Source of the DNA: an uncultured SAR116 cluster alpha proteobacterium
GTDB lineage: Bacteria > Pseudomonadota > Alphaproteobacteria > Puniceispirillales > Marisalimonadaceae
Direction: 5' to 3'
Length of the DNA stretch: 43,082 nt
NCBI GenBank assembly: GCA_902595515.1
Contig: CACJQK010000012.1
Location: forward strand, 1 to 43,082
This document shows, in pieces, positions 1,880-15,152 of the stretch; the first letter of the stretch is position 1; each line of letters begins with the position of its first letter. Under the pieces are notes generated by a model that saw only the letters and a list, made by a program, of their open reading frames with translations, searched no databases and was not told where the DNA came from. Position numbers and translations under genes: made by a program.

Positions 1880-1982
1880 CAAATTTTTTAATTTTTTTGT
1901 TTTTATTTTCTTATAAATTTAAATACATTTAGACAATATATGGAAATAGCGAAAGCATTTAAAATTCTGCATGAGGGGTGTT

Positions 1983-3374
1983 ATGGAAAGAAAATTATTA
2001 GCAGTCGTTGCTGCAGACATGGTAGGATTTTCAAGATTAATTGAAGATGATGAAATTAATTTACTCTCAAGACAAAAAAATCAATTAAATACAATAATTA
2101 AACCAGAAATAGAAAATTTTAATGGTGAAATTATTAAAACAACTGGAGATGGCTTCTTAGCTATTTTCCCAAGTGCATTAGATGCTGTACAAAGTAGCAT
2201 ATCCATACAAAATGGAATTTATGAAAATGAATTAGACAATGCTAATGACAAAAGAATAAGTTTCAGAATTGGAATCCACGTTGGTGATGTAGTTCTAGAT
2301 GATGGAGACATTTTTGGTAACACTGTAAATATTGCAAGTAGATTAGAGTCAATAGCTGATGCAGGACATATTTGCATTACAAATGATGTTTATCAAAGTA
2401 TCAAAAATTTGAAACCATTAGACATTGAAAATATAGGTGAGCAATTTTTAAAAAATATTTCCCAAAAAGTTCAAGTATATAAAATAAATATATTCGAAGG
2501 TGATACAAAGAAAATTCAAGATAATCATTTACTAACAGAGGCTAACCAAGAAACAAGATTTTGCAGTTCATTTGATGGTACTATCATAGCCTATGCAAGT
2601 ATTGGAAAAGGAACACCCTTTTTAAAAGCACCTAATTTTGTTAGTAGCTTAGAGCATGATTGGAGAAATCCGATGTGGACACATATGTATAGATTTTTAG
2701 CTAAAGAATATACTTTGTACCGATTTGATCAAAGAGGAAATGGTTTGTCAGACCTTGATCCAGAAAATATAAACTTTGAAAGTTTTGTTAAAGACATGGA
2801 AGCTGTGGTAAATAACTCGCAAATTAATAAATTTCCAATTTTTGGTATCTCACAAGGATGCTCAGTTTCAATAGCTTATGCACATAAATACCCAGAAAAA
2901 GTAACTCATTTAATATTAGTTGGGGGTTATGCTAGAGGAAGAGCAAAACGAGGAAACGCTGATTATAAAGAAAAATTTGAACTAGAAAAGAATATGATAT
3001 TAAACGGATGGGAAAATGAAAATCCAGCTTTTAGGCAATTTTTTTCATCAACAATGATCCCTGATGGAACAAAGGAACAAATGAACTCATTTAACAATGT
3101 TATGAAAGTATCTACATCTGCAAAAAACGCTGTAAAAATTATTTCAGCCAATGATCAAATAGATGTCTCAGGATTATTACCTAAACTTAATATTCCCACA
3201 ATAATTTTTCATATTAAAAATGATTCGAGGGTACCAATTTCTGAGAGTAAATTTATGGCAGCAAATATAAAAAATTCTAAATTTGTGCCATTAAATGGAA
3301 ACAATCATGTGATTCTCGAAAATGATGAAGGTTGGCCTATATTTCAAAAGGAGTTAAAAAATTTTCTTAAATAA
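1983..3374 (+). CDS. Class III adenylyl cyclase fused to an alpha/beta hydrolase
   Basis: Residues ~1-165 form a class III cyclase catalytic domain. It has metal-binding Asp12 (AADMVGFS) and Asp56 (KTTGDGF), adenine-selecting Lys52 and Asp109, and the transition-state pair Asn116/Arg120 in NTVNIASRLES, so it should make cAMP. Residues ~185-463 form an alpha/beta hydrolase with nucleophile Ser290 (FGISQGC), Asp414 and His442 (NNHVIL). No membrane segment is visible. I place the start at the ATG at 1983 because GAGGGG lies just upstream; an in-frame ATG at 1971 has no ribosome-binding site. Related fusions are known, for example mycobacterial Rv1900c, but there the hydrolase comes first. It precedes an acyl-CoA gene pair, perhaps in one operon. 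The hydrolase substrate is unknown. Confidence 0.88.
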   Translation: MERKLLAVVAADMVGFSRLIEDDEINLLSRQKNQLNTIIKPEIENFNGEIIKTTGDGFLAIFPSALDAVQSSISIQNGIYENELDNANDKRISFRIGIHVGDVVLDDGDIFGNTVNIASRLESIADAGHICITNDVYQSIKNLKPLDIENIGEQFLKNISQKVQVYKINIFEGDTKKIQDNHLLTEANQETRFCSSFDGTIIAYASIGKGTPFLKAPNFVSSLEHDWRNPMWTHMYRFLAKEYTLYRFDQRGNGLSDLDPENINFESFVKDMEAVVNNSQINKFPIFGISQGCSVSIAYAHKYPEKVTHLILVGGYARGRAKRGNADYKEKFELEKNMILNGWENENPAFRQFFSSTMIPDGTKEQMNSFNNVMKVSTSAKNAVKIISANDQIDVSGLLPKLNIPTIIFHIKNDSRVPISESKFMAANIKNSKFVPLNGNNHVILENDEGWPIFQKELKNFLK

Positions 3375-3406
3375 TAAATTTAAATTTTTTCACAATAGGA
3401 ATAAAA

Positions 3407-4558
3407 ATGGACTTTAATTTAACAGAAGAACAAATAACATTTCAAAATTCAGTAAGAAATCTGGCGGATAAATATTTAAAAAAGGATAATCTTAGACGTG
3501 CCCATGACCCTTTATTTCCTAAAGATATTGCAAAGTTATTTTCTAACAATGGTTTAATGGGAATTACACTTTCTGAAAAAGATGGGGGGCAGGGAGGTAA
3601 TTTAATGGATGCTGTTCTTGCAATAGAGCAAGTTGCCTTAATTTGTCCAAGAAGTGCAGATGTGATACAAGCAGGAAGCTTTGGTCCAATAAGGACCTTC
3701 GCAGAGTACGCAACTGATTATCAAAAAGAAAAATATTTAAAAAAATTGTTAAACGGAGAAATGGTAATTGGTTTAGGTATGACTGAGCCTAATGCTGGTT
3801 CAGCAGTAACTGATTTGACAACCAAAGCTGTTCAAGACGGCAAAGGGTTTAGAGTATCCGGAAGTAAAGTCTTTACTAGTAACTCACCAGATGCGGATAT
3901 CTTTTTGATTTATGTAAGATATCATGAAGGAATTAATGGAATTGGATCAGTTATAATGGATACATCAATGCCAGGTTTTTCGAAAGGAAAATCATCAAAA
4001 TATACTAATGGTGAAGAATGGTGTGCATTATATTTTGATAATGTTTATATTGCTGAAGAAAATGTTTTGTTAGGACCTGGTGGATTTAAAAAACAAATTT
4101 CAGGATTTAATGCAGAAAGAATTGGAAACTCTGCGAGATCACTTGCCCTTGGTGAGTTTGCTTTTAATGTTGCTAAAGAATATGCTTTAACAAGAGAGCA
4201 ATTTGGAAAGAAAATTTGTGAATTCCAAGGTATTCAATGGAAGTTTTCAGATATGAAAATTCAAATTGAAGCTGGCAGATTACTATTATACAGAGCCGCT
4301 ATAAATGCAGATAGAGGTTTTCCTTCTTCAAAAGAAACTTCAATTGCTAAAGCATTTTGTAATAAAGCAGGATTCGAAATTAGTAATGAGGCAATGCAAG
4401 TTATGGGCGGTACAGGATATTCACAGGAGTCACTTGTTGAATATTGCTTCAGAAAATCTAGAGGATGGCAAATTGCAGGTGGATCAACTGAAATGATGAA
4501 AAATAGAATAGCCGAAGACATCTTTGAAAGGAGATTTTTACAAAGGCCAAATGAATGA
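3407..4558 (+). CDS. Acyl-CoA dehydrogenase family protein
   Basis: A flavoenzyme of 383 residues, the normal family length. It would introduce an alpha-beta double bond into an acyl-CoA and pass electrons to ETF. FAD/substrate motifs seen are GLGMTEPNAGSAVTD (~124-138), the middle beta domain with FRVSGSKVFTSN, ALTREQFGKKI and the C-terminal QVMGGTGYSQES. The usual MCAD catalytic Glu near the C-terminus is replaced (IAGGSTEM). Glu237 in NAERIG aligns with the alternative base position known from isovaleryl-CoA dehydrogenases, suggesting a branched or short-chain substrate (inference). AGGAATAAAA supports the start. It is followed after nine bases by an acyl-CoA synthetase, with which it probably shares a pathway. 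Confidence 0.9.
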   Translation: MDFNLTEEQITFQNSVRNLADKYLKKDNLRRAHDPLFPKDIAKLFSNNGLMGITLSEKDGGQGGNLMDAVLAIEQVALICPRSADVIQAGSFGPIRTFAEYATDYQKEKYLKKLLNGEMVIGLGMTEPNAGSAVTDLTTKAVQDGKGFRVSGSKVFTSNSPDADIFLIYVRYHEGINGIGSVIMDTSMPGFSKGKSSKYTNGEEWCALYFDNVYIAEENVLLGPGGFKKQISGFNAERIGNSARSLALGEFAFNVAKEYALTREQFGKKICEFQGIQWKFSDMKIQIEAGRLLLYRAAINADRGFPSSKETSIAKAFCNKAGFEISNEAMQVMGGTGYSQESLVEYCFRKSRGWQIAGGSTEMMKNRIAEDIFERRFLQRPNE

Positions 4559-4567
4559 TTTTTAATT

Positions 4568-6652
4568 ATGATAGATGTTTCTTTATCCCAATCTTTTTTA
4601 AACCCAAAATCAGTTGCAATAATAGGCGCTTCTGCTGACCCAAAAAAGACTAGTTCACGAGCACAAAGGTTTCTGGTATCGCATGGTTATAAAGGAAAAA
4701 TATTTCCTGTAAATCCAAACAGAGAAGAAATTTTTGGATTAAAATGTTATCCAAATTTAAAATCAATAAATGAACATATTGATCATATCTTTATTGCTGT
4801 TGATAGTAATAAAATTATTGAAGCAATTAAAGATGCTATATCAAAAAAAGTTAGATGCGCCACAATTTTATCTGGAGGATTCACTGAGTCTGGATCTGAA
4901 GGTAATGATTTAGAAAAACAAGTTTTTAAAATAGCAAAAAAAGGTGATTTGAGAATATTGGGACCAAATAGTATTGGTCTTATAAATATCTCAGATAATG
5001 TCATTTTAAGTGCAAATGCCATGCTTGAATTACAAGATTTAAAGAAAGGAAGTCTTAGTGTAATTTCCCATAGCGGGAGTCTTATTGGAGCCTTATTGGC
5101 TCATGGCCACTCTCGAGGCATAGGTTTTTCTAAGTTGGTTTCTGTTGGAAATGAGTCGGATCTCTCCGTTGGAGAAATTGGTAAAATGCTAGTTAATGAT
5201 CCAAACACTGAATGCATAATATTATTTTTAGAAACATTAAGAAACAGTGATGAAGTAGCACAGATGTCCAGAATGGCTCACGTAGCAGGAAAACAAATTA
5301 TCTGTTACAAACTTGGAAAATCTGAATTAAGTCAAGAATTAGCTAAATCACATACAGGAGCAATAGCAGGAAATGATGATGCGTTTAATGCATTCATAAA
5401 TTATCATGGTATTGCTAGAGTAGAAATCTTTGAAACATTAATTGAAATTCCTAATTTATTTAAAAACAAGAAAAGATCTGAATCTAAACGAGTAGGTATA
5501 GTTACCACAACTGGTGGGGGCGGTGCTATGGTTGTAGAGAGCTTGTCAGGCAGTGATATTGAAATAATTGATTTTGGTCTTTCAATAAAGAAAATTATGC
5601 AAGACAATAATATTGCATTTAACAATAATAAACTAGTTGATTTAACCATTGCTGGAACAAAACCAGAAATTGTTAATGACGTAATTAGTCAGATGATGAA
5701 AAATGAAAATTGCGATTTAGTTGTGATGGTAGTTGGTTCCTCTGCTAAATTTAGACCAGAGCAAGCAGTTGAGCCTCTATTAAAATGGGCAAATTACCCA
5801 AAACCGTTAGCTGTGTACGTTGCACCTGATGCTCCAGAAGCACTAAATTTATTACATCAAAATAATATTGCTTGTTTTAGAACACCCGAGTCTTGTGCGG
5901 AGAGTGTGAAGACTTTTTTAAATACTAAAAATCCAGTTAAACCAATAATTTTAAAAAATGACTTAAGTGACATTTCAAAAAAACTAAAGAAAAACATTTT
6001 CAAGAATTTATCTGAAGAAGAAGCATTAGAAATATTTAAAGATATAGGGATTGAAATTGTAGAATACAAAGTAAGCTCCAATGAAAAACAAGCAATAGAA
6101 TATAGTTCCCAAATAGGATTTCCTTTAGCAATGAAAGTTTTATCAAGTGAGATAATGCATAAAACAGAAACTGGAGGTGTTGAATTAAATATAAAAAATT
6201 TAGAAGAGGTGAAAATTAGTTTTAAAAAGTTATCAGATGTATTTCAGAAATTAAAAATAATTAGTAGTGAAAAAAAAATTATTATTCAAAAAATGGAAAA
6301 AGGAATTGCTGAAATAATTTTAGGTTATAGAGTTGACGAATTAGTTGGACCAATTGTTGTAATAGGTTCAGGTGGTATTTTATCAGAGATATATAATGAC
6401 AAATCAATAAGGATGGCACCAGTTGATGTCACAGAGGCAAAAAAAATGATTAAGGAAGTTAAAAGTCTTGTGACTATAACTGGATATAGAGGACTTCCCG
6501 AAGTTGATATAAATATTATTGCTACTGCAATAGTGAATATATCTAAATTTGCTTTAGTCAAAGAAATTAAAGAGGCTGAGATTAATCCAGTTATAGTAAA
6601 AAAAAATAATGAAGGAATTGTAGCAGTAGACGGTCTAATTACTTTAAAATGA
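4568..6652 (+). CDS. ADP-forming acyl-CoA synthetase (acetate-CoA ligase family)
   Basis: A single 694-residue chain combining the alpha and beta parts of NDP-forming acyl-CoA synthetases. The N-terminal CoA-binding Rossmann domain has SVAIIGASADPKK (~13-25) and RILGPNSIGLIN. The ligase domain has VISHSGSLIGALL and the putative phospho-His segment SHTGAIAGND. The C-terminal ATP-grasp domain (~480-694) includes AMKVLSSEIMHKTETGGVEL and EINPVIV. Such enzymes interconvert acyl-CoA + ADP + Pi and acid + CoA + ATP. It lies nine bases after the acyl-CoA dehydrogenase without a strong ribosome-binding site of its own, so translation may be coupled. The acid is not identifiable from sequence; acetate is only the best-known member. 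Confidence 0.88.
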   Translation: MIDVSLSQSFLNPKSVAIIGASADPKKTSSRAQRFLVSHGYKGKIFPVNPNREEIFGLKCYPNLKSINEHIDHIFIAVDSNKIIEAIKDAISKKVRCATILSGGFTESGSEGNDLEKQVFKIAKKGDLRILGPNSIGLINISDNVILSANAMLELQDLKKGSLSVISHSGSLIGALLAHGHSRGIGFSKLVSVGNESDLSVGEIGKMLVNDPNTECIILFLETLRNSDEVAQMSRMAHVAGKQIICYKLGKSELSQELAKSHTGAIAGNDDAFNAFINYHGIARVEIFETLIEIPNLFKNKKRSESKRVGIVTTTGGGGAMVVESLSGSDIEIIDFGLSIKKIMQDNNIAFNNNKLVDLTIAGTKPEIVNDVISQMMKNENCDLVVMVVGSSAKFRPEQAVEPLLKWANYPKPLAVYVAPDAPEALNLLHQNNIACFRTPESCAESVKTFLNTKNPVKPIILKNDLSDISKKLKKNIFKNLSEEEALEIFKDIGIEIVEYKVSSNEKQAIEYSSQIGFPLAMKVLSSEIMHKTETGGVELNIKNLEEVKISFKKLSDVFQKLKIISSEKKIIIQKMEKGIAEIILGYRVDELVGPIVVIGSGGILSEIYNDKSIRMAPVDVTEAKKMIKEVKSLVTITGYRGLPEVDINIIATAIVNISKFALVKEIKEAEINPVIVKKNNEGIVAVDGLITLK

Positions 6653-6741: not shown

Positions 6742-7524
6742 ATGATTATAAATCATGGGGTAAGAGGATCAACACCAAATCCAAGTCAAAATTTTTTATT
6801 TTTTGGCGGTAATACTCCTTGTGTAGAAATTAAAACTCAAAAATATCAACTGATTTTCGATTGCGGTTCAGGGTTTTCAAAAGTTAATTTTTCTAACGAT
6901 CTTGAAACTATATTATTTATTTCACATTTCCATCATGATCACATCCAAGGATTACCTTTTAACAATTATGATACTAATCTAAATAAAAAAATTACATTAA
7001 CATCAGCTCATTCTGATAAAAATAATACTTACAAAAAATTAAGTACATATTATAGTAATCCTTATTTTCCCGTAAATTTTATTGATATTCTAGATAAATT
7101 TAAATTTTTAGATTTTGATCAAGTAGTAAATAATTTTGAAGATTTAAATATAAATTCTATTGATTTAAATCATCCTGGAAATTGTTCTGGGTATAGTATC
7201 ACAAGTGATAAAAAAAAATTTTGTTATTTATTAGATAATGAATATGAAGAAGAACAAGAACAAAAATTGATAGATTTTTGTAATCTATCAGACACGGTTA
7301 TATGGGATGGAATGTTTTTAGATCATGAATTGTTAGAAAAAAAAGGCTGGGGTCATTCAAGCATTGAACAAGGTGTAACATTAGCAAATAAGATAGAAGT
7401 GAAAAATTTTCTTATATCTCATCACGCACCAACAAGAGAAGATAAAGAAATAAAAAGTTTAGAAAAAATATTATTTAATAAAAAAGTGAAATTTGCGTCT
7501 GAAAATGAGGTTATAGAGTTCTAA
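6742..7524 (+). CDS. Metallo-beta-lactamase-fold hydrolase, phosphodiesterase-like
   Basis: A 260-residue protein with the two-metal signature His62-x-His64-His65-Asp66-His67 (SHFHHDHIQG), preceded by an N-terminal VRGSTPNP...GGNTPC region and LIFDCGSGF. A later Asp (CYLLDNEYE) and ISHHAPTRED supply the distal ligands. This N-terminal style occurs in RNase Z/PhnP-like and class II cyclic-nucleotide phosphodiesterase-like members. It is translationally coupled to a cyclic-nucleotide-binding protein (stop and start share one base) and heads an operon ending in a cyclase. Hydrolysis of a cyclic nucleotide is therefore an attractive but unproven role. No signal peptide, so probably cytosolic. Confidence 0.82.
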   Translation: MIINHGVRGSTPNPSQNFLFFGGNTPCVEIKTQKYQLIFDCGSGFSKVNFSNDLETILFISHFHHDHIQGLPFNNYDTNLNKKITLTSAHSDKNNTYKKLSTYYSNPYFPVNFIDILDKFKFLDFDQVVNNFEDLNINSIDLNHPGNCSGYSITSDKKKFCYLLDNEYEEEQEQKLIDFCNLSDTVIWDGMFLDHELLEKKGWGHSSIEQGVTLANKIEVKNFLISHHAPTREDKEIKSLEKILFNKKVKFASENEVIEF

Positions 7525-7862
7525 TGGAAAAAACTAAATATAATGAAAATCAAAGTGTTTTTAAAGTTGGAGAATTACCTGACAAAATGTATTTATTAGT
7601 TAAAGGTTCTGTAGGCATTTTTCTTCCAACAAACGAAACTAAAAAACCTAATTTTATCATTCAAGAAAACGAACTTTTTGGTGAGATGGGTGTTATAGAA
7701 AATGAACTTAGAATGGCTACAGCAAGATGTCTGGCAGATAGTGAAATTATTTCTATTACCAAAGATGAGTTTGATAAACGTGTAAATAATTCAGATGTTT
7801 TTGTTAAAGGTTGCTTAAAGGCTTTATCATATAGATTAAGATCAGTAGAGAAAAAGATGTAA
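7524..7862 (+). CDS. Stand-alone cyclic nucleotide-binding domain protein
   Basis: A small 112-residue protein that is almost only a CAP/PKA-type cNMP-binding beta barrel. The phosphate-binding cassette FGEMGVIENELRMATARC (~53-70) keeps the Gly-Glu that contacts the ribose and the Arg that contacts the cyclic phosphate. YLLVKGSVGIFL and IISITKDEFD are the typical flanking strands. There is no DNA-binding helix-turn-helix and no membrane part, so it probably works by binding a partner. Its start overlaps the stop of the MBL hydrolase by one base, and the giant kinase begins directly after it. It is a likely second-messenger reader for this operon (inference). Confidence 0.87.
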   Translation: MEKTKYNENQSVFKVGELPDKMYLLVKGSVGIFLPTNETKKPNFIIQENELFGEMGVIENELRMATARCLADSEIISITKDEFDKRVNNSDVFVKGCLKALSYRLRSVEKKM

Positions 7863-7880
7863 ATGAAAGAAGGTTTAAAT

Positions 7881-10800
7881 ATGCTTAAAGATTTGGATGT
7901 TGCGAAGGTTTTAATAGAAGCTTTTGATAATGATGAAACTGGTATCTTGTTATATGACAAAAAAGATAAATTGTGTTTTGCAAACAAACCCATGTTTACA
8001 AGGTTTAATAGGCTCAAAGTTAATTATGAAATAGGTGAGAGTGTTTATGAAAGAATGGGAAAATTCAAAAAATTAAAAATCATACCTGTAGAAGAAATTA
8101 ATCAAAGAATAGATAATTATAACAAAGTAAAAAAAACAAAAATTGCCTCTCAGTACGTCATAAAAGGCCCTACAGGTAGGTGGATACAGATAAGAGACAA
8201 TCTTACTCCTTCTGGCTATATTTTAACTGTAATGACTAATGTTACAGATATTATTGAACAAGATCTTGAAAGAAAACGTTTGTCTGAAGCTATTGAGAAC
8301 TTTCCGGGTGGAGTTATGTTTTGGGATGAAAATGATCAACTAATTGTATCTAACAAACGTAACCAGGAAATAATGAAACAAGCTGGAATTGATTTCATTT
8401 TAGAAAAAGGTATCAAATATGAACAAATGTTAAAAAAGCAAGTTAACAGTAATTTGTATATTTTACCTAAGGGTATTTCAAAATCAAAATATATTAAAAA
8501 AAGACTTCAAGAGCGAGCAGATTTAAAATCAAGGACAAGAGAAATTAATTTACAAACAGGAACTACAATCATTGCAAATGAGACGAGGTTTGAAGATGGT
8601 TCTCTCCTAAGTGTATACACTGATATTACGGACCTTAAAAAACAGCAAATAGAGTTAAAACAGCTTGCAGATGCTATTGAATTTACCCCCAGTAATCTAA
8701 TGCTATGGGATAAAGATAATAAACTCATTATGGCTAATAAAAAAGCAAGAGATGAAAATGCTAAAAGAGGTTTTAGTCTGAAAAAAGGATCTTCAAGAAT
8801 CGAAATGGTTAAGAATGCTCTAAAAAAAGGTTTGATGGAACCTCCAAAAGGGATAACGATTAATAAATTTTTAGAGGGGAGAAAAAAACAATTTGATAAT
8901 TTAAAAGATCAAGAAACTTACGAAGTCATAGTTAATAAACAACATTTTCTTGCCTCTTCCTATAGGTTGCCTGACCAATCAACTTTACAATTTGTAACCA
9001 ATATTACTGAAAATAAAAAACAAGAAACTGAACTTTTAAGGTTAAAAAATGGTATTGAAACTCTCCCAAACGGTCTGATGTTTTGGGATGAAAATGATAA
9101 TTTGATTGCATTTAATGAAAGTTCACAAAATTTAACTGAATATTATGGTTTAACACTAAAAATTGGTATGAATTTTAGCGATTTGAGAAAACATATGGTT
9201 TTAAATCACCAAAAACCACCAAAAGGAATAACCATTAAACAACATTTTAAAAATAGAGAAAAAGCGTGGAAAAATCTTAAAGGTCAAAATACTAGAGAAT
9301 CAAATTTTACAGATCATACTCTTCACTTTACAGATACAAGATTACAAGATGGAAGTACAATTTGTTTATGGACTGACATAACAGATATAAAAAAACAAGA
9401 AAACGAATTGATAAGATTAAGAGATGGTATTGAAACTTTACCTAATGGATTAATGTTTTGGGATAAAAATGATAAATTAATTGCTAGTAATAAGGCGGCT
9501 ATTGATTTTGTAAAAGATTTTGGTTTTGACCTTAAACTTGGTGTCAATAGATTTGATCATGTTCACTACATGTATGAAAACGATGTCATTATCATCAAAA
9601 AGGGCATGACTAAAAATCAACAAATTAATCATACTATTGATAATTGGAGAAAATTCAAAGGCACTAGAACTCGAGAATCTGAATTTACAAATGGTAGATC
9701 TTTTTTATTCACTGAAACTAGATTAAATGATGGAAGTACTATTTCTTTATGGACTGATATAACTGCGACAAAAAAACAAGAAAAAGAGTTATTACGTTTC
9801 AAGGATGGAATTGAGACCTTACCAAACGGCCTAATGTTTTGGGACCAGAATGATAAATTAATAGCTAACAATAAAAGTTCTGTTTCATTCTTTAAAAAAT
9901 TTGGTTTTAATTTAGATATTGGAATTACAAGAAATCAATTGCTGGAATACATGATACTCAAAGAAAAAGTGTTAATTCCTAAGGAAGAAAATAAAAAACA
10001 ATATTTAAAAAAAATAATTAAAGAATGGAAATTATTTAAAGGCAAAAAGCTTAGGGAAAATAATTTCTCAAATGGTAAGACAATTTTAACTACTGATACT
10101 AGGTTAGAAGATGGTAGTACAATATCCCTTTATGTAGATGTAACAGACATAAAGACTGTTGAAAAAAATCAAAAACAACTTATCGACGCTATAGATGTTA
10201 TGCCTAATAGTATTTCTTTGTGGGATAAAGAAAATAAACTGATAATGGCAAATCAAACCTCAATAGCAGACATGAAAAAATTAAACTTTGAATTGAAACC
10301 GGGAGTGCCAAGAATTTCCATGGTGAGAAACGTAGTAAATCATGGCCTGGTTCCTATTCCAAAAGGAATGACAAAAAAACAATTTTATGAATCAAAATTA
10401 AAAGAATATGAAAGTTTAAAAAATGAACAGAGAGACGAAATAGAATTAAACAATGGTAATTTTGTTTTAAATATCGCTAAAAGATTGCCAGATGGTGGAA
10501 CACTGCAAAACTCCATAAACATTACTGAGATTAAAAAAGGAGAAAAATCATTAAAATTGCTTAGTGATGCCATTGAAATTATACCAAATATGTTAATGTT
10601 GTGGGATAAAGACAACAGATTAATTATGGCAAATCGTCGCGCGAGAGATATTCAAAGTAAGATGGGAATGATATTAAAACCAGGTGTTTCTAGGTTTGAA
10701 ATGCTTGAAGCTGGATTAAAATCAGGGTCTTTACTGGATAGTGAAGGTTTGCCAGCAAAACAATGGGTGGAAAAGAGAAAAAAAGGAATTATTAATCTTA

Positions 10801-13748
10801 AGGGCAGAGAAATAGTTGAGACCCGGATAAAAGTAGAAAATGTTATTTATGATATTTTAGGTTCATTTACTCGTTTGAATGACGGAGGTACTTTGCAGAT
10901 TTGGACTGACATTACAGAAATCAGACAAAAAGAAAGAGAAGTTGCAGAAAGTCAGAGAAAAGTAAGGGAAGCTGAAGAAAAAATTTCAAATGCAATAAAC
11001 AGTATGCCCCATGGAATTACCATGTGGGATGAGAATATGAAATTAGTAATGTTTAACAACTATGCAAATGAAGTGTGGACAAAAGGTAACGTTAAAATAA
11101 AAGTTGGAACCTCATATGCTGAATATATGAAACAATCCAAGAAAAATAAATTTTTAATCTTCGATAAAAAGTCTGATGAAATTGAATATTATAAAAACGC
11201 AGTAGAAAATAGAAAAAAATTTAAGGGAGTTTTTACTATAGAGACACCTCCATTTTATGATGGATCAATTTGGCAATCAACATCAACCAGGTTGCCTGAT
11301 GGAGGTGTGTTTTCAATCTTGTCTAATATAACAGATTTGAAAAGAAGAGAAGCTTCATTGAAACAGTTGAGTGATTCGATTGAGGCTACACCAAATGCAA
11401 TTTTACTTTGGGATAAGAATCATAAACTTGTTGTGGGTAATAAAAAAGCCAGAGATGTTCAAAAAGAACTTGATTTTGATTTAAAGCCAGGAATCTTAAG
11501 AAAAGATATGATTGATAATGTTGAAAAAAAAGGTTTAGTTGCTATTCCAGAAGGAATGACAACTGAAGAATTTTATATTCAGAGGAGAGTTGCAACAAAA
11601 TCGTCTAAAAATCATATGTATGAGTTAGCATTTACAAACGGCACTACATGGTTAGTAAGTGATACAAAGTTACCTGATGGAGGTTTTTTGCAGGTTTATT
11701 CTGATATTTCAGAAATGAAAGAAAAAGATAAAGAAATAAAACTAGCACAAGAACAAGTCAGAAAAACAGAAAAAAGAATGACTGACGCATTAAATAGTAT
11801 GCCTCATGGTATTTCCTTATGGAATAAAGATGACACATTGGCAATGAGAAATACGCTGGCTTTTGATATTCATAAAGGAGCTGGTATAGATACCTATCAA
11901 CCAGGTATTACATATAAAGAACAAACAGAGGCATGGGAAAAGTATGATTTTTTTGATTTTGATAATGTAGAACAAAAAAAGAAGTTTTTTAAATCAATTA
12001 AAGATAGCCGAAAAGATTTGAAAGGATCAATGACGGTTGAAACCCCCAGATTTTATAATGGAACTTATTGGCAAGCTACTTATAGACGTTTAAATGATGG
12101 TGGAGTTTTTACAATATTTTCTGATATAACTGAACTCAAAAAACGTGAAGAAGAATTAAATAAAACGATTAAGGAATTAGATGTAGCAAGGGAAAAAGCA
12201 GATGCTGCCAACCAGACTAAAAGTCAATTTCTTGCAAATATGAGTCATGAATTAAGAACACCTTTAAATGCCATAATAGGTTTAACAGAGATGTTAAAAG
12301 AAGATGCAGCAGATGATGGCTTGGACGATTTTGAAGAGCCACTTGATAGAGTTTTTAATGCAGGCAAACATCTCTTAACACTTATAAACGACGTATTAGA
12401 TTTATCTAAAATTGAAGCAGGAAGAGTGGAATTATTTAATGAAACATTTGAGCTAACACAAATTTTGGATGATGTCATGAAAACTTCATTACCTTTAGCT
12501 CAAAAGAATGATAACGAATTAATTATTGATTATAAGACAGAGATTGATTTTGTTACTGCTGACCAAACTAGGGTTAAACAGGTTGTTTTGAATTTAATTT
12601 CTAATGCTTGTAAATTTACTGAAAAAGGTAAAATAACTGTTGGAGTAAATAAAATTTTACGTGAAGGTGGTGACCTAATTTCTATAGATGTAAGCGATAC
12701 TGGTATTGGTATGTCAGACGAGCAGATGTCTAGATTGTTTAATTCATTTGTCCAAGCTGATAGTTCAACAACGAGAAAATATGGTGGAACAGGTTTAGGA
12801 CTTACTATTTCAAAACAGCTTGCAATATTAATGGGTGGCGATGTCGTGGTAAATAGTGTGTTAGGAAAAGGTACGACTTTTACAGCAACATTTCTAGCAG
12901 ATTTCATTGGCGCATCTGAAAGTTTAAAAAATTTACAACAAAAAACTGGTTCTTTAATTGAAAATGTTATTACTTTAGAAAACAATACGGGAAAGACAAT
13001 TTTAATAATTGACGATGATCCAACTGTTAGCGAACTAATGAAACGTCAATTGTTGAAAGAAGGTTATAAAGTAGTTATTGCACCAAATGGGAAAGAGGGA
13101 ATTAGTTTAGCACGTGATCTTAAACCTGATGTTATTACTCTAGATATTTTGATGCCCGAAATGGATGGGTGGTCAGTACTGCGTACCTTAAAGGCTGATC
13201 CTGAAGTTTCAAATATCCCCGTTATTATGGCTTCGATATTAGATGAGAAAAATAAAGGATTTTCGCTAGGTGCAGCAGATTTTTTATCAAAACCTATCCA
13301 AAAAGAATACCTAATGAAATCAATTAGAAATTTAATAGGTGATAAAGAAAATCTTAAAATTTGCCTTATTGAAGATGATGAAAGTTTAAGGTTTACAATT
13401 AAAGAAATTTTAGAAAAACAAAATGTTCAAATTATGGAAGCAGAAAATGGCAAAGTTGGAATGAATATTTTACAGAATGAAGAAATTAAACCTGATTTAA
13501 TTTTGTTAGATTTGATGATGCCAGTAATGAATGGTTTTGAATTTTTAAAAGCTATAAGAGAAACTGAATTAAATTCTATTCCAATTTTAGTTTTGACTGG
13601 AGCAGAATTAAGTGGAGATGAAAAGACATTTTTGTTAGGTGAAACACAAAGAATACTTGAAAAAAGTGAAGATACAATGTCTACAATCGTTAATGAGGTA
13701 AGTAATGTTATTAAGGCTTCTTCATTTAAAAATGGAGATAGTAAATGA
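7881..13748 (+). CDS. Giant soluble hybrid histidine kinase with eleven PAS-like units and two receivers
   Basis: About 1955 residues with no transmembrane segment. Eleven PAS-like units of ~125-135 residues begin near residues 5, 135, 264, 390, 515, 641, 769, 895, 1037, 1164 and 1302. Each has a core like PNGLMFWDxNDKLIA followed by RLxDG and a closing DITxxKK. Then come HisKA with phospho-acceptor His1456 (NMSHELRTPLNAI), a HATPase with N box (NLISNACKF), DTGIGMS and GGTGLGL, and two receivers with Asp1755 (LDILMPEMDG) and Asp1877 (LDLMMPVMNG). The ATG at 7881 has GAAGG seven bases upstream; an in-frame ATG at 7863, directly after the preceding stop, is the alternative. It would pass phosphate to the two receivers encoded next. 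No heme- or flavin-binding signature is recognisable in the PAS units, so the signal is unknown. Confidence 0.92.
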   Translation: MLKDLDVAKVLIEAFDNDETGILLYDKKDKLCFANKPMFTRFNRLKVNYEIGESVYERMGKFKKLKIIPVEEINQRIDNYNKVKKTKIASQYVIKGPTGRWIQIRDNLTPSGYILTVMTNVTDIIEQDLERKRLSEAIENFPGGVMFWDENDQLIVSNKRNQEIMKQAGIDFILEKGIKYEQMLKKQVNSNLYILPKGISKSKYIKKRLQERADLKSRTREINLQTGTTIIANETRFEDGSLLSVYTDITDLKKQQIELKQLADAIEFTPSNLMLWDKDNKLIMANKKARDENAKRGFSLKKGSSRIEMVKNALKKGLMEPPKGITINKFLEGRKKQFDNLKDQETYEVIVNKQHFLASSYRLPDQSTLQFVTNITENKKQETELLRLKNGIETLPNGLMFWDENDNLIAFNESSQNLTEYYGLTLKIGMNFSDLRKHMVLNHQKPPKGITIKQHFKNREKAWKNLKGQNTRESNFTDHTLHFTDTRLQDGSTICLWTDITDIKKQENELIRLRDGIETLPNGLMFWDKNDKLIASNKAAIDFVKDFGFDLKLGVNRFDHVHYMYENDVIIIKKGMTKNQQINHTIDNWRKFKGTRTRESEFTNGRSFLFTETRLNDGSTISLWTDITATKKQEKELLRFKDGIETLPNGLMFWDQNDKLIANNKSSVSFFKKFGFNLDIGITRNQLLEYMILKEKVLIPKEENKKQYLKKIIKEWKLFKGKKLRENNFSNGKTILTTDTRLEDGSTISLYVDVTDIKTVEKNQKQLIDAIDVMPNSISLWDKENKLIMANQTSIADMKKLNFELKPGVPRISMVRNVVNHGLVPIPKGMTKKQFYESKLKEYESLKNEQRDEIELNNGNFVLNIAKRLPDGGTLQNSINITEIKKGEKSLKLLSDAIEIIPNMLMLWDKDNRLIMANRRARDIQSKMGMILKPGVSRFEMLEAGLKSGSLLDSEGLPAKQWVEKRKKGIINLKGREIVETRIKVENVIYDILGSFTRLNDGGTLQIWTDITEIRQKEREVAESQRKVREAEEKISNAINSMPHGITMWDENMKLVMFNNYANEVWTKGNVKIKVGTSYAEYMKQSKKNKFLIFDKKSDEIEYYKNAVENRKKFKGVFTIETPPFYDGSIWQSTSTRLPDGGVFSILSNITDLKRREASLKQLSDSIEATPNAILLWDKNHKLVVGNKKARDVQKELDFDLKPGILRKDMIDNVEKKGLVAIPEGMTTEEFYIQRRVATKSSKNHMYELAFTNGTTWLVSDTKLPDGGFLQVYSDISEMKEKDKEIKLAQEQVRKTEKRMTDALNSMPHGISLWNKDDTLAMRNTLAFDIHKGAGIDTYQPGITYKEQTEAWEKYDFFDFDNVEQKKKFFKSIKDSRKDLKGSMTVETPRFYNGTYWQATYRRLNDGGVFTIFSDITELKKREEELNKTIKELDVAREKADAANQTKSQFLANMSHELRTPLNAIIGLTEMLKEDAADDGLDDFEEPLDRVFNAGKHLLTLINDVLDLSKIEAGRVELFNETFELTQILDDVMKTSLPLAQKNDNELIIDYKTEIDFVTADQTRVKQVVLNLISNACKFTEKGKITVGVNKILREGGDLISIDVSDTGIGMSDEQMSRLFNSFVQADSSTTRKYGGTGLGLTISKQLAILMGGDVVVNSVLGKGTTFTATFLADFIGASESLKNLQQKTGSLIENVITLENNTGKTILIIDDDPTVSELMKRQLLKEGYKVVIAPNGKEGISLARDLKPDVITLDILMPEMDGWSVLRTLKADPEVSNIPVIMASILDEKNKGFSLGAADFLSKPIQKEYLMKSIRNLIGDKENLKICLIEDDESLRFTIKEILEKQNVQIMEAENGKVGMNILQNEEIKPDLILLDLMMPVMNGFEFLKAIRETELNSIPILVLTGAELSGDEKTFLLGETQRILEKSEDTMSTIVNEVSNVIKASSFKNGDSK

Positions 13749-14119
13749 CAAAGATATTATATGTAGAAGACAACGAAGACAATGTTTATATGTTATCAAG
13801 ACGTTTAAAAAGGAAAGGTTTTGAAATAGTTATTGCTGTTGACGGAGAGCAGGGTGTTGAGATGGCGTCTTCAGAGAAACCAGATCTTATTTTAATGGAT
13901 TTGAGTTTACCAAAAATGGATGGATGGACTGCAACTAAACACATCAAAAGTAAAGATGAGCTTAAATCAATTCCAATAATTGCTCTATCAGCACATGCAA
14001 TGGAAGAACATAAACAAAGAGCACTTGATAGTGGTTGTAATGATTATGATACTAAACCAGTAGATATCAAAAGGCTATTATCTAAAATATCAGAGCAATT
14101 AGGTACTAAAAATGATTAA
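13745..14119 (+). CDS. Single-domain response regulator (DivK-like)
   Basis: A 124-residue receiver with no output domain. It has the acidic pair YVEDNEDN at the N-terminus, phospho-acceptor Asp in ILMDLSLPKMDG (~49-60), the Ser of ALSAHAM in the conserved Thr/Ser place, and Lys in DTKPVD. It overlaps the kinase stop by four bases (ATGA) and the next gene by eight, so the three are made together. Receivers of this kind act as phosphorelay shuttles or protein-binding switches. Resemblance to DivK is at fold level only; the partner is not evident. Confidence 0.92.
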   Translation: MTKILYVEDNEDNVYMLSRRLKRKGFEIVIAVDGEQGVEMASSEKPDLILMDLSLPKMDGWTATKHIKSKDELKSIPIIALSAHAMEEHKQRALDSGCNDYDTKPVDIKRLLSKISEQLGTKND

Positions 14120-15152
14120 CAAAGAGGATGCAAATATACTAATTGTTGATGATATTGAAGATAATAGATATACGCTTGAAAGAAGATTAAAAAGAGATGG
14201 TTATAAAAATATCTTCCTAGCTGAGGGCGGTAAAACAGCTCTTGATATGGCTACGAAAAACAAATTTGATTTAATACTTTTAGATCTTATGATGCCAGAT
14301 ATGAGTGGTCTTGAGGTTCTTAAATATCTAAAAGGTGATCCTCTACAAAGATCTATTCCTGTCATTATGGTTACAGCTTCTGATGAAGTAGAAACAGCTG
14401 CAGAATGCATCATAAATGGCGCCGATGATTTCATTACTAAACCTTTCAATGGAACTTTGCTCAAAGCAAGAGTTGGAGCAAGTCTAGAGAAAAAAAGATT
14501 AAGAGACACTGAAGAAAGTTATTTAGATAGAGTTGAAACAGACAAAAAACGATCACAACAAATATTGAAAACTGTTATGCCTACCTCTGTAGCTAATGAA
14601 CTTCAGTCATCTGGAAAAGTTAGGTCTAGAAGATATGATGACGTGGCAATTTTAATATGTGATTTAGTTGGCTTTACATCATTTTGTGAAAAAAATGACC
14701 CAGAATTAGTTGTTGAAACATTGCAGGGTCTTGTAGAAAATTTTGAAAAAGCCTTTGAAGATTTTGGCTTAGAGAAAATTAAAACAGTTGGAGATGCTAT
14801 TGTTGCAGTTGCAGGGTTATCTTCACACGCCATTTCTCCTGTTAAATCTTGTGTAGATTGTTCTTACAAATTAAGGGAGATTGCAAATACGTCATCAATG
14901 CCTTGGAATCTCCACCTTGGGATACACTCTGGTTCTCTTGTTGCTGGAACAGTTGGGACAAAAACAGTGCAATTTGATATTTTGGGAAAAACAGTAAATA
15001 TGGCATTTAATATATGTGATATGTCTGAGTCAAATCAAATTCTTATTTCTAGCGATGCTTGGATGACAGCAAGAAATGAAATTAAAGTAAAATCGATTGG
15101 ATTAAAAAGATTAAAGAGTGGCCAAGACATTGAAATGTTAGAATGCGTTTAG
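14112..15152 (+). CDS. Response regulator with a class III cyclase output domain; catalytic Arg missing
   Basis: Residues ~1-125 form a receiver with Asp58 (LILLDLMMPDMSG) and Lys in TKPFN. A charged helical linker (~125-165) leads to a class III cyclase domain (~170-346). Metal-binding Asp184 (CDLVGFTSF) and Asp228 (TVGDA) are present, as are adenine-selecting Lys224 and Asp289 and the transition-state Asn296. The Arg normally four residues after that Asn is Asn300 (VNMAFNICD), so activity may be low, altered or lost. The start overlaps the single-domain receiver by eight bases. As the terminal gene of the operon it is the natural output of the upstream kinase. Confidence 0.9.
   Translation: MINKEDANILIVDDIEDNRYTLERRLKRDGYKNIFLAEGGKTALDMATKNKFDLILLDLMMPDMSGLEVLKYLKGDPLQRSIPVIMVTASDEVETAAECIINGADDFITKPFNGTLLKARVGASLEKKRLRDTEESYLDRVETDKKRSQQILKTVMPTSVANELQSSGKVRSRRYDDVAILICDLVGFTSFCEKNDPELVVETLQGLVENFEKAFEDFGLEKIKTVGDAIVAVAGLSSHAISPVKSCVDCSYKLREIANTSSMPWNLHLGIHSGSLVAGTVGTKTVQFDILGKTVNMAFNICDMSESNQILISSDAWMTARNEIKVKSIGLKRLKSGQDIEMLECV

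Follow-up and report, generated by a model that had tools for sequence, protein, structure and literature searches.

Metallo-β-lactamase (MBL)-type phosphodiesterases that are controlled by their own class of substrate are known from Dictyostelium, whose GbpA and GbpB are described as class IIb enzymes in which an MBL domain is followed by cyclic nucleotide (cNMP)-binding domains and which are activated by cNMPs (PMC11988041). A second group, the atypical class-II phosphodiesterases Rv1339, Bacillus subtilis YhfI, and Corynebacterium glutamicum CpdA, shares Pfam family PF12706 and a [T/S]HXHXDH motif, and the accessible portion of that report does not mention a paired cNMP protein (PMC9293780). 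Here, we describe five adjacent genes in a 43,082-nucleotide stretch (the window) of contig CACJQK010000012.1 from an uncultured SAR116 cluster alphaproteobacterium. They encode an MBL-fold hydrolase, a stand-alone cNMP-binding domain, a hybrid histidine kinase, a single-domain response regulator (the receiver), and a class III cyclase with a receiver (REC-cyclase). As in GbpA and GbpB, an MBL hydrolase is followed by a cNMP-binding domain, but the eukaryotic proteins are single polypeptides with two cNMP domains, while the window has two genes and one domain, a likeness that we draw from their description. We find that this operon merges two separable modules, an MBL-cNMP pair and a kinase-receiver-REC-cyclase cassette.

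The five-gene order is a stable property of this group of bacteria. In 25 genomes of the genus, that of the window included, all 14 loci uncut by contig ends show the order MBL-cNMP-kinase-receiver-REC-cyclase, with a convergent PhyH gene next in line, which makes the gene set more than chance and bears out the conserved synteny that an initial annotation, made from the sequence alone, had proposed as a check. G003, G023, and G010 hold partial operons that are cut by contig ends. The REC-cyclase was found at 94-100% identity in 18 of the 25 genomes and the MBL at 72% or more in 16. Identity to the window decreases from the REC-cyclase through the receiver (92-99%), cNMP protein (88-100%), and MBL (72-86%) to the kinase (51-98%). 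The same order is kept at four more distant loci (L120, L121, L123, and L124), whose MBLs are only 51-54% identical.

The first module recurs well beyond this operon. We considered 80 named loci (L096-L175), the best of 133 MBL relatives found with two peptide patterns, a search that favors this clade; L096-L118 and L061-L076 have many contigs in common. With adjacency judged by domain coordinates, and gap-0 loci (L121, L122, and L124) counted as adjacent, a cNMP gene lies directly downstream of the MBL on the same strand in 68 of the 80, that is, in 29/29 loci of the SAR116 lineage (L096-L124) and 39/51 of L125-L175, which take in Rhodobacteraceae such as HIMB11 (L172) and SB2 (L148). Six of the twelve nonadjacent loci have a cNMP gene within ~2 kb (L136, L137, L140, L143, L145, and L174), and the other six have none in the stretch (L142, L160, L163, L167, L170, and L171), L160 being without downstream sequence. 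For 40 outgroup MBL loci from elsewhere in the class (9 chosen because their open frames were long and 31 that ranked high by score; 182 genomes had a match), the corresponding counts are 0 directly downstream and 3 within 3 kb, and none of 40 class-level loci encodes an MBL-cNMP fusion protein. The MBL has a cyclase domain no more than 3 kb away in 24/51 of L125-L175, against 2/40 in the outgroup and 2/29 in L096-L124, the last figure being low because the kinase lies between. These cyclases are varied, with frame lengths of 426-430 aa in some, a 578-aa protein bearing TPR in L137, a 557-aa protein of ferredoxin type in L079, and lengths between 271 and 776 aa in the rest. In a tree of 58 MBLs, whose root is arbitrary, 34 clade rows separate from the other 24 with an approximate likelihood ratio test (SH-aLRT) value of 100, and a cNMP gene or cyclase is near in 32 of these 34 versus 3 of the 24. 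The pair also occurs without the cassette, directly followed by PhyH, in L113 and L125-L128, and in L115 the cassette precedes it. By analogy, this association points to a possible cNMP phosphodiesterase whose allosteric subunit is a separate protein, as in a split counterpart of GbpA and GbpB. In L079 (4248-9087), the MBL, an opposite-strand 594-aa cyclase, a cNMP protein, and a further 2Fe-2S-type cyclase stand side by side, and L136, L140, and L143 are similar; here, the same MBL family belongs to a different cNMP cluster.

The second module is likewise found by itself. A REC-cyclase relative at E 1e-45 is present in 18 of 385 genomes of the class, our own included, and we read eight of these distant loci (L263-L270). 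L263, L264, L265, and L268, from other alphaproteobacteria, have kinase, receiver, and REC-cyclase arranged as in the window, and the 9-16 kb read contain neither an MBL nor a cNMP gene. Their receivers and REC-cyclases are 57-67% and 43-46% identical to those of the window, from which the cassettes differ in lacking the MBL-cNMP pair, in keeping the catalytic Arg of the cyclase, and in their PAS content of at least one domain (four in L265; since the profile derives from the SAR116 lineage, these are minimum counts). Of the remaining loci, two (L266 and L267) show a kinase next to the cyclase, together with weaker matches to receivers; L269 is truncated; and L270 is without an adjoining receiver gene. 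A paralogous kinase-receiver-REC-cyclase set, with a 591-aa cyclase and a HisKA match, exists in G006, G015, and G013. In the paralogous sets of L091 (4521-9609), L092, and L093, the 591-aa cyclase keeps the Arg, and the HisKA match of L091 precedes the receiver.

The explanation that we favor, with slightly less than even confidence, is that the operon joins a cNMP-sensitive phosphodiesterase to a kinase cassette setting cyclase output. The small protein would bind cNMP and, in complex with the MBL enzyme, switch it on, so that the messenger would limit itself. The kinase, with its PAS array, would phosphorylate both the single-domain receiver and that of the cyclase, as in other alphaproteobacterial two-component cassettes, and thereby set whatever output the cyclase retains. 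Presumably cotranscribed, the five genes would place synthesis and breakdown of one messenger, probably a cNMP, under common expression. The signaling role that the initial annotation had assigned to these genes is thus supported in part. The gene set stands, but "self-contained" does not suit an operon whose genome has seven cyclase domains and four cNMP domains, nor does "phosphorelay," since Hpt (PF01627) was matched in 0/25 genomes (the control was matched in 8/14; ChpT-type Hpt was not searched for). Without a PF01627 Hpt, the kinase probably signals straight to the receivers, as DivJ and PleC do with DivK and PleD.

The kinase has the HisKA and HATPase_c domains and the receivers, with acceptor His and Asp, of a hybrid histidine kinase. 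Pfam finds PAS_7 in 10 stretches, HisKA, HATPase_c, and two Response_reg domains, and a PAS profile that we built counts the 11 PAS domains previously assigned; the solubility assumed for the kinase agrees with the lack of an evident membrane-spanning stretch in any of the five proteins (the Kyte-Doolittle mean over 19 residues reaches at most 1.42). Complete kinases of relatives have from 6 to 12 PAS domains. At 80% identity, 252 PAS units of 27 kinases fall into 43 shared types and 42 singletons, which occur in changing combinations and never twice within one protein. The unit comparisons exclude the kinases that are split or cut (L077, L103, L106, and L116), and one of them also excludes L119.

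As a baseline of relatedness, we used the identity at four-fold degenerate sites of as many as three genes that flank the operon and compared 105 pairs drawn from the window and L096-L118, each with usable kinases and two or more flanking genes. In 11 of the 12 pairs of close relatives (flanks 80-94% identical), one or more PAS units find no counterpart with over 65% protein identity in the partner kinase. For example, L110 and L111 (flanks 92%) have nine and eight PAS domains, and six of the nine are at most 54% alike. Between the window and L117 (flanks 91%), PAS 4-8 agree at 94-100% of four-fold sites and PAS 9-11 at only 38-57%, while receiver and cyclase agree at 95 and 99%. Against L112 (flanks 89%), PAS 2-8 are 74-96% identical at these sites, the cNMP gene 73%, and the MBL, PAS 1, PAS 9-11, kinase core, receiver, and cyclase 30-55%, with abrupt borders near 8240 and 10990. 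Parts of the operon other than the PAS array are thus mosaic too. A recent transfer of PAS 2-8 from or to L112, considered because of their 94-98% nucleotide identity next to only 40-52% of four-fold sites for MBL, receiver, cyclase, and kinase core, was rejected: most genes outside the operon are 85-91% alike at these sites (the direct neighbors, ligase-like and PhyH, 68-77%), so that PAS 2-8 are at genome level and the unusual divergence is that of the remaining operon. In one comparison, 25 of 28 unit pairs involve L112 and are to be read against this genome-level similarity. The mosaic stands, but the direction of exchange does not follow. Among the 93 distant pairs, four unit matches lie well above flank level, including P10 and P11 of L100 against P11 and P12 of L101 (95 and 92%, flanks 71%), which suggests transfer between lineages. 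Replacement of PAS modules by recombination is the simplest reading of these comparisons, although single units may instead have diverged very fast. The MBL gene of the window may itself be recombinant, its nucleotide identity to L097, L100, and L117 falling from 93-95% at the start to 77-78% at the end.

In contrast to this varied input, the REC-cyclase is almost invariant, and it departs from other cyclases at one catalytic position. We take the metal Asp, Lys, Asp/Thr, Asn, and transition-state Arg columns to have their catalytic roles in this family. Alignment with adenylyl cyclase 8 places VNMAFN of the window opposite VNLASR, so that Asn300 replaces the transition-state Arg. The Asn is found in 18/18 genus sequences and 24/24 distinct REC-cyclases (41 records, among them L114, L115, L120, L121, L123, and L124; the L119 record, cut before this column, was left out), none of which therefore has the Arg characteristic of class III cyclases. 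Since all 54 other distinct cyclases (58 records) of loci L061-L175 and all eight REC-cyclase homologues read outside the order keep the Arg, it was most likely lost in the SAR116 lineage. The protein is 94-95% identical between the window and L108, L109, or L112 even though four-fold sites are only 36-52% identical, which indicates strong selective constraint. Both the uniform loss and the constraint speak for a REC-cyclase that is a pseudo-cyclase and serves, under control by phosphorylation, as partner or regulator to a canonical cyclase, for example the one at 1971-3374. We consider this a real possibility, if clearly short of an even one: 41/41 records retain both metal Asp residues together with the substrate residues (Lys and Asp) and the Asn, as a pure pseudo-enzyme would not need, and no cyclase is labeled upstream of the pair in L120-L124. 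A structure model of the REC-cyclase is weak (predicted local distance difference test, 79.7; predicted template modeling score, 0.50; 14 sequences). A pseudo-cyclase is compatible with phosphodiesterase activity of the MBL-cNMP pair.

The MBL enzyme is a candidate cNMP phosphodiesterase. As in Rv1339, YhfI, and CpdA, the protein belongs to PF12706 (43.5 bits; cut-off, 27), and the phosphodiesterase-like HxHHDH site noted by the initial annotation is present, in the form SHFHHDH, which fits [T/S]HXHXDH. SHxHxDH occurs in 24 of 25 aligned MBLs (the distant L088 has GHYHFDH), but the motif is unspecific, as outgroup MBLs carry it too. The window MBL lies far below the curated cyclic-nucleotide phosphodiesterase model NF041851 (33.8 bits versus a cut-off of 400), an equivalog model narrower than the class, and PF02112 of typical class-II phosphodiesterases is absent from its Pfam matches up to E 0.01. 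The MBL could be another hydrolase, RNase Z- or PhnP-like, gated by cNMP through the small protein and acting as a terminal effector of the pathway. Its best fold matches are indeed RNase Z and its kin, with YhfI also high and the Apyc1 anti-Pycsar enzymes, which differ from the window gene in that the latter belongs to a two-component operon, scoring below both. A grouping with RNase Z had been named beforehand as a check on the phosphodiesterase claim. The RNase Z model TIGR02651 scores 71.2 bits against a cut-off of 292.95, which nothing in the 25 genomes of the order reaches and which is hence undecisive here, slightly lowering confidence in a phosphodiesterase and raising it in a gated hydrolase. 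Moreover, the scarce cNMP link of the outgroup MBLs makes it probable that the ancestral substrate was something else. Five apparent REC-MBL fusions of 404-416 aa that belong to the wider MBL family in other alphaproteobacteria (L207, L208, L209, L210, and L211), whose receivers were read by eye and which are possibly phosphorylation-controlled hydrolases, also fit. However, the recurrent proximity to many types of cyclase is what is expected of a messenger-degrading enzyme, and another MBL of the same genome, C29, outscores that of the window with the RNase Z model (55.6 versus 47.5 bits, both under the cut-off). On balance, we regard a gated hydrolase of this kind as rather unlikely.

The small cNMP protein could instead act alone, as an independent messenger reader of the kind supposed by the initial annotation, on the kinase or another target, next to an unregulated MBL phosphodiesterase. 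Its phosphate-binding cassette, FGEMGVIENELRMA, was compared with FGEMALIDNQNRSA of Bd1971, its nearest bacterial relative in the PDB, in which a cNMP domain serves a cyclic AMP-sensing EAL phosphodiesterase (PMC6717892). Bd1971 differs in being a single-chain cyclic di-GMP enzyme, whereas the window protein is separate, stands beside an MBL, and has Met for Ser in the cassette. No frame combines a cNMP domain with HTH_Crp_2 in our genome, of which ~20% is missing, nor in the 99%-complete G014, so that stand-alone cNMP proteins must have some way of acting, and in the window the kinase start immediately follows the end of the cNMP gene. Stand-alone cNMP-domain frames of ~115-270 aa recur in the genus. 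Yet the 39 pairs of L125-L175 have no relative of the kinase labeled nearby, and the sequence read around the four clear kinase cassettes at distant loci contains no cNMP gene; we therefore think an independent reader unlikely. Chance clustering without a shared pathway, for which it might be said that every family is common by itself and that the full set was seen only in SAR116-type records bar a few not so titled (e.g., L114, L115, and L119), is highly improbable given an order kept throughout the genus and in loci with MBLs as distant as those of L120, L121, L123, and L124.

As for other known systems, the receiver of the REC-cyclase has PleD as its closest relative in the PDB (E 8e-29), but the output domain is GGDEF in PleD and a class III cyclase here. 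Among the open-access titles and beginnings of abstracts returned for the gene set, its parts, and mosaic PAS arrays, no title describes this set, a search for cNMP signaling in SAR116 being little informative. This agrees, within that literature, with the earlier remark that no pathway with this exact set was known, and we make no claim as to its unpublished status. Known domains thus appear in a recurrent combination that we did not find described, and the PAS mosaic and the Arg-less cyclase are new here.

The coordinates of all features are collected in Table 1. Open reading frames coincide exactly with the five same-strand genes with touching or overlapping ends first annotated, and Pfam matches agree with the domains then assigned. 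As read from the junction letters, MBL and cNMP genes share one base, kinase and receiver overlap by four, and receiver and REC-cyclase by eight. The kinase frame opens directly after the cNMP gene (7862/7863); an ATG at 7881, six codons downstream, may be the real start, and several relatives' kinase frames open ~20-26 bases past the cNMP stop. Upstream on the same strand (1971-6652) lie a cyclase-alpha/beta-hydrolase fusion, an acyl-CoA dehydrogenase, and an acyl-CoA-ligase-like gene; a cyclase of 464-468 aa is upstream in 19 of 23 loci (L096-L118). The genome assembly (1.87 Mb) is 80% complete, and GC content is 30% for locus and window alike. The AG- and SCGC isolates among the nearest SAR116-cluster relatives are, we assume, single-cell genomes.

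Table 1. Features of the operon and its surroundings (positions in the window)
Feature	Position	Strand	Description
Second class III cyclase fused to alpha/beta hydrolase	1971..3374	+	467 aa; Arg kept (VNIASR); outside the five
MBL-fold hydrolase gene	6742..7524	+	260 aa; ORF (open reading frame) + Pfam Lactamase_B_2 (PF12706)
Stand-alone cNMP-binding domain gene	7524..7862	+	112 aa; ORF + Pfam cNMP_binding
Hybrid histidine kinase gene	7863..13748	+	1961 aa; 11 PAS, HisKA, HATPase_c, two receivers
PAS array, 11 domains	7941..12146	+	P1 7941-8261 ... P11 11802-12146; mosaic among relatives
PAS 2-8	8304..10931	+	L112 similarity at level of genes outside operon; rest of operon far more diverged
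HisKA (SHELRTP) + HATPase_c	12219..12893	+	Pfam, motif
Kinase receiver 1 (LDILMP)	12999..13325	+	Pfam, motif
Kinase receiver 2 (LDLMMP)	13356..13697	+	Pfam; ends estimated from motif
Single-domain response regulator gene	13745..14119	+	124 aa; Pfam Response_reg
REC-cyclase gene	14112..15152	+	346 aa; Pfam Response_reg + Guanylate_cyc

Taken further, and tentatively, since we think it clearly less probable than not as a whole, the MBL-cNMP pair of SAR116 and Rhodobacteraceae may represent a hitherto undescribed phosphodiesterase family that is two-subunit and cNMP-gated and thus the bacterial equivalent of GbpA/GbpB. In one SAR116 lineage, the pair would have been joined to a cassette with an Arg-less cyclase and a combinatorial sensor kinase, whose PAS modules are swapped by recombination to give varied input to an almost invariant output. 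If so, marine alphaproteobacteria would break down cyclic nucleotides by a two-gene, self-sensing enzyme in genomes that yielded no CRP-type regulator, and this enzyme would be testable with two small soluble proteins. The PAS mosaic would provide a natural series of sensor arrays on a near-constant signaling chain, useful for finding out what PAS_7 domains sense, and the Arg-less cyclase, nearly invariant under selection, would be a clean case for testing if a class III "pseudo-cyclase" is capable of signaling.

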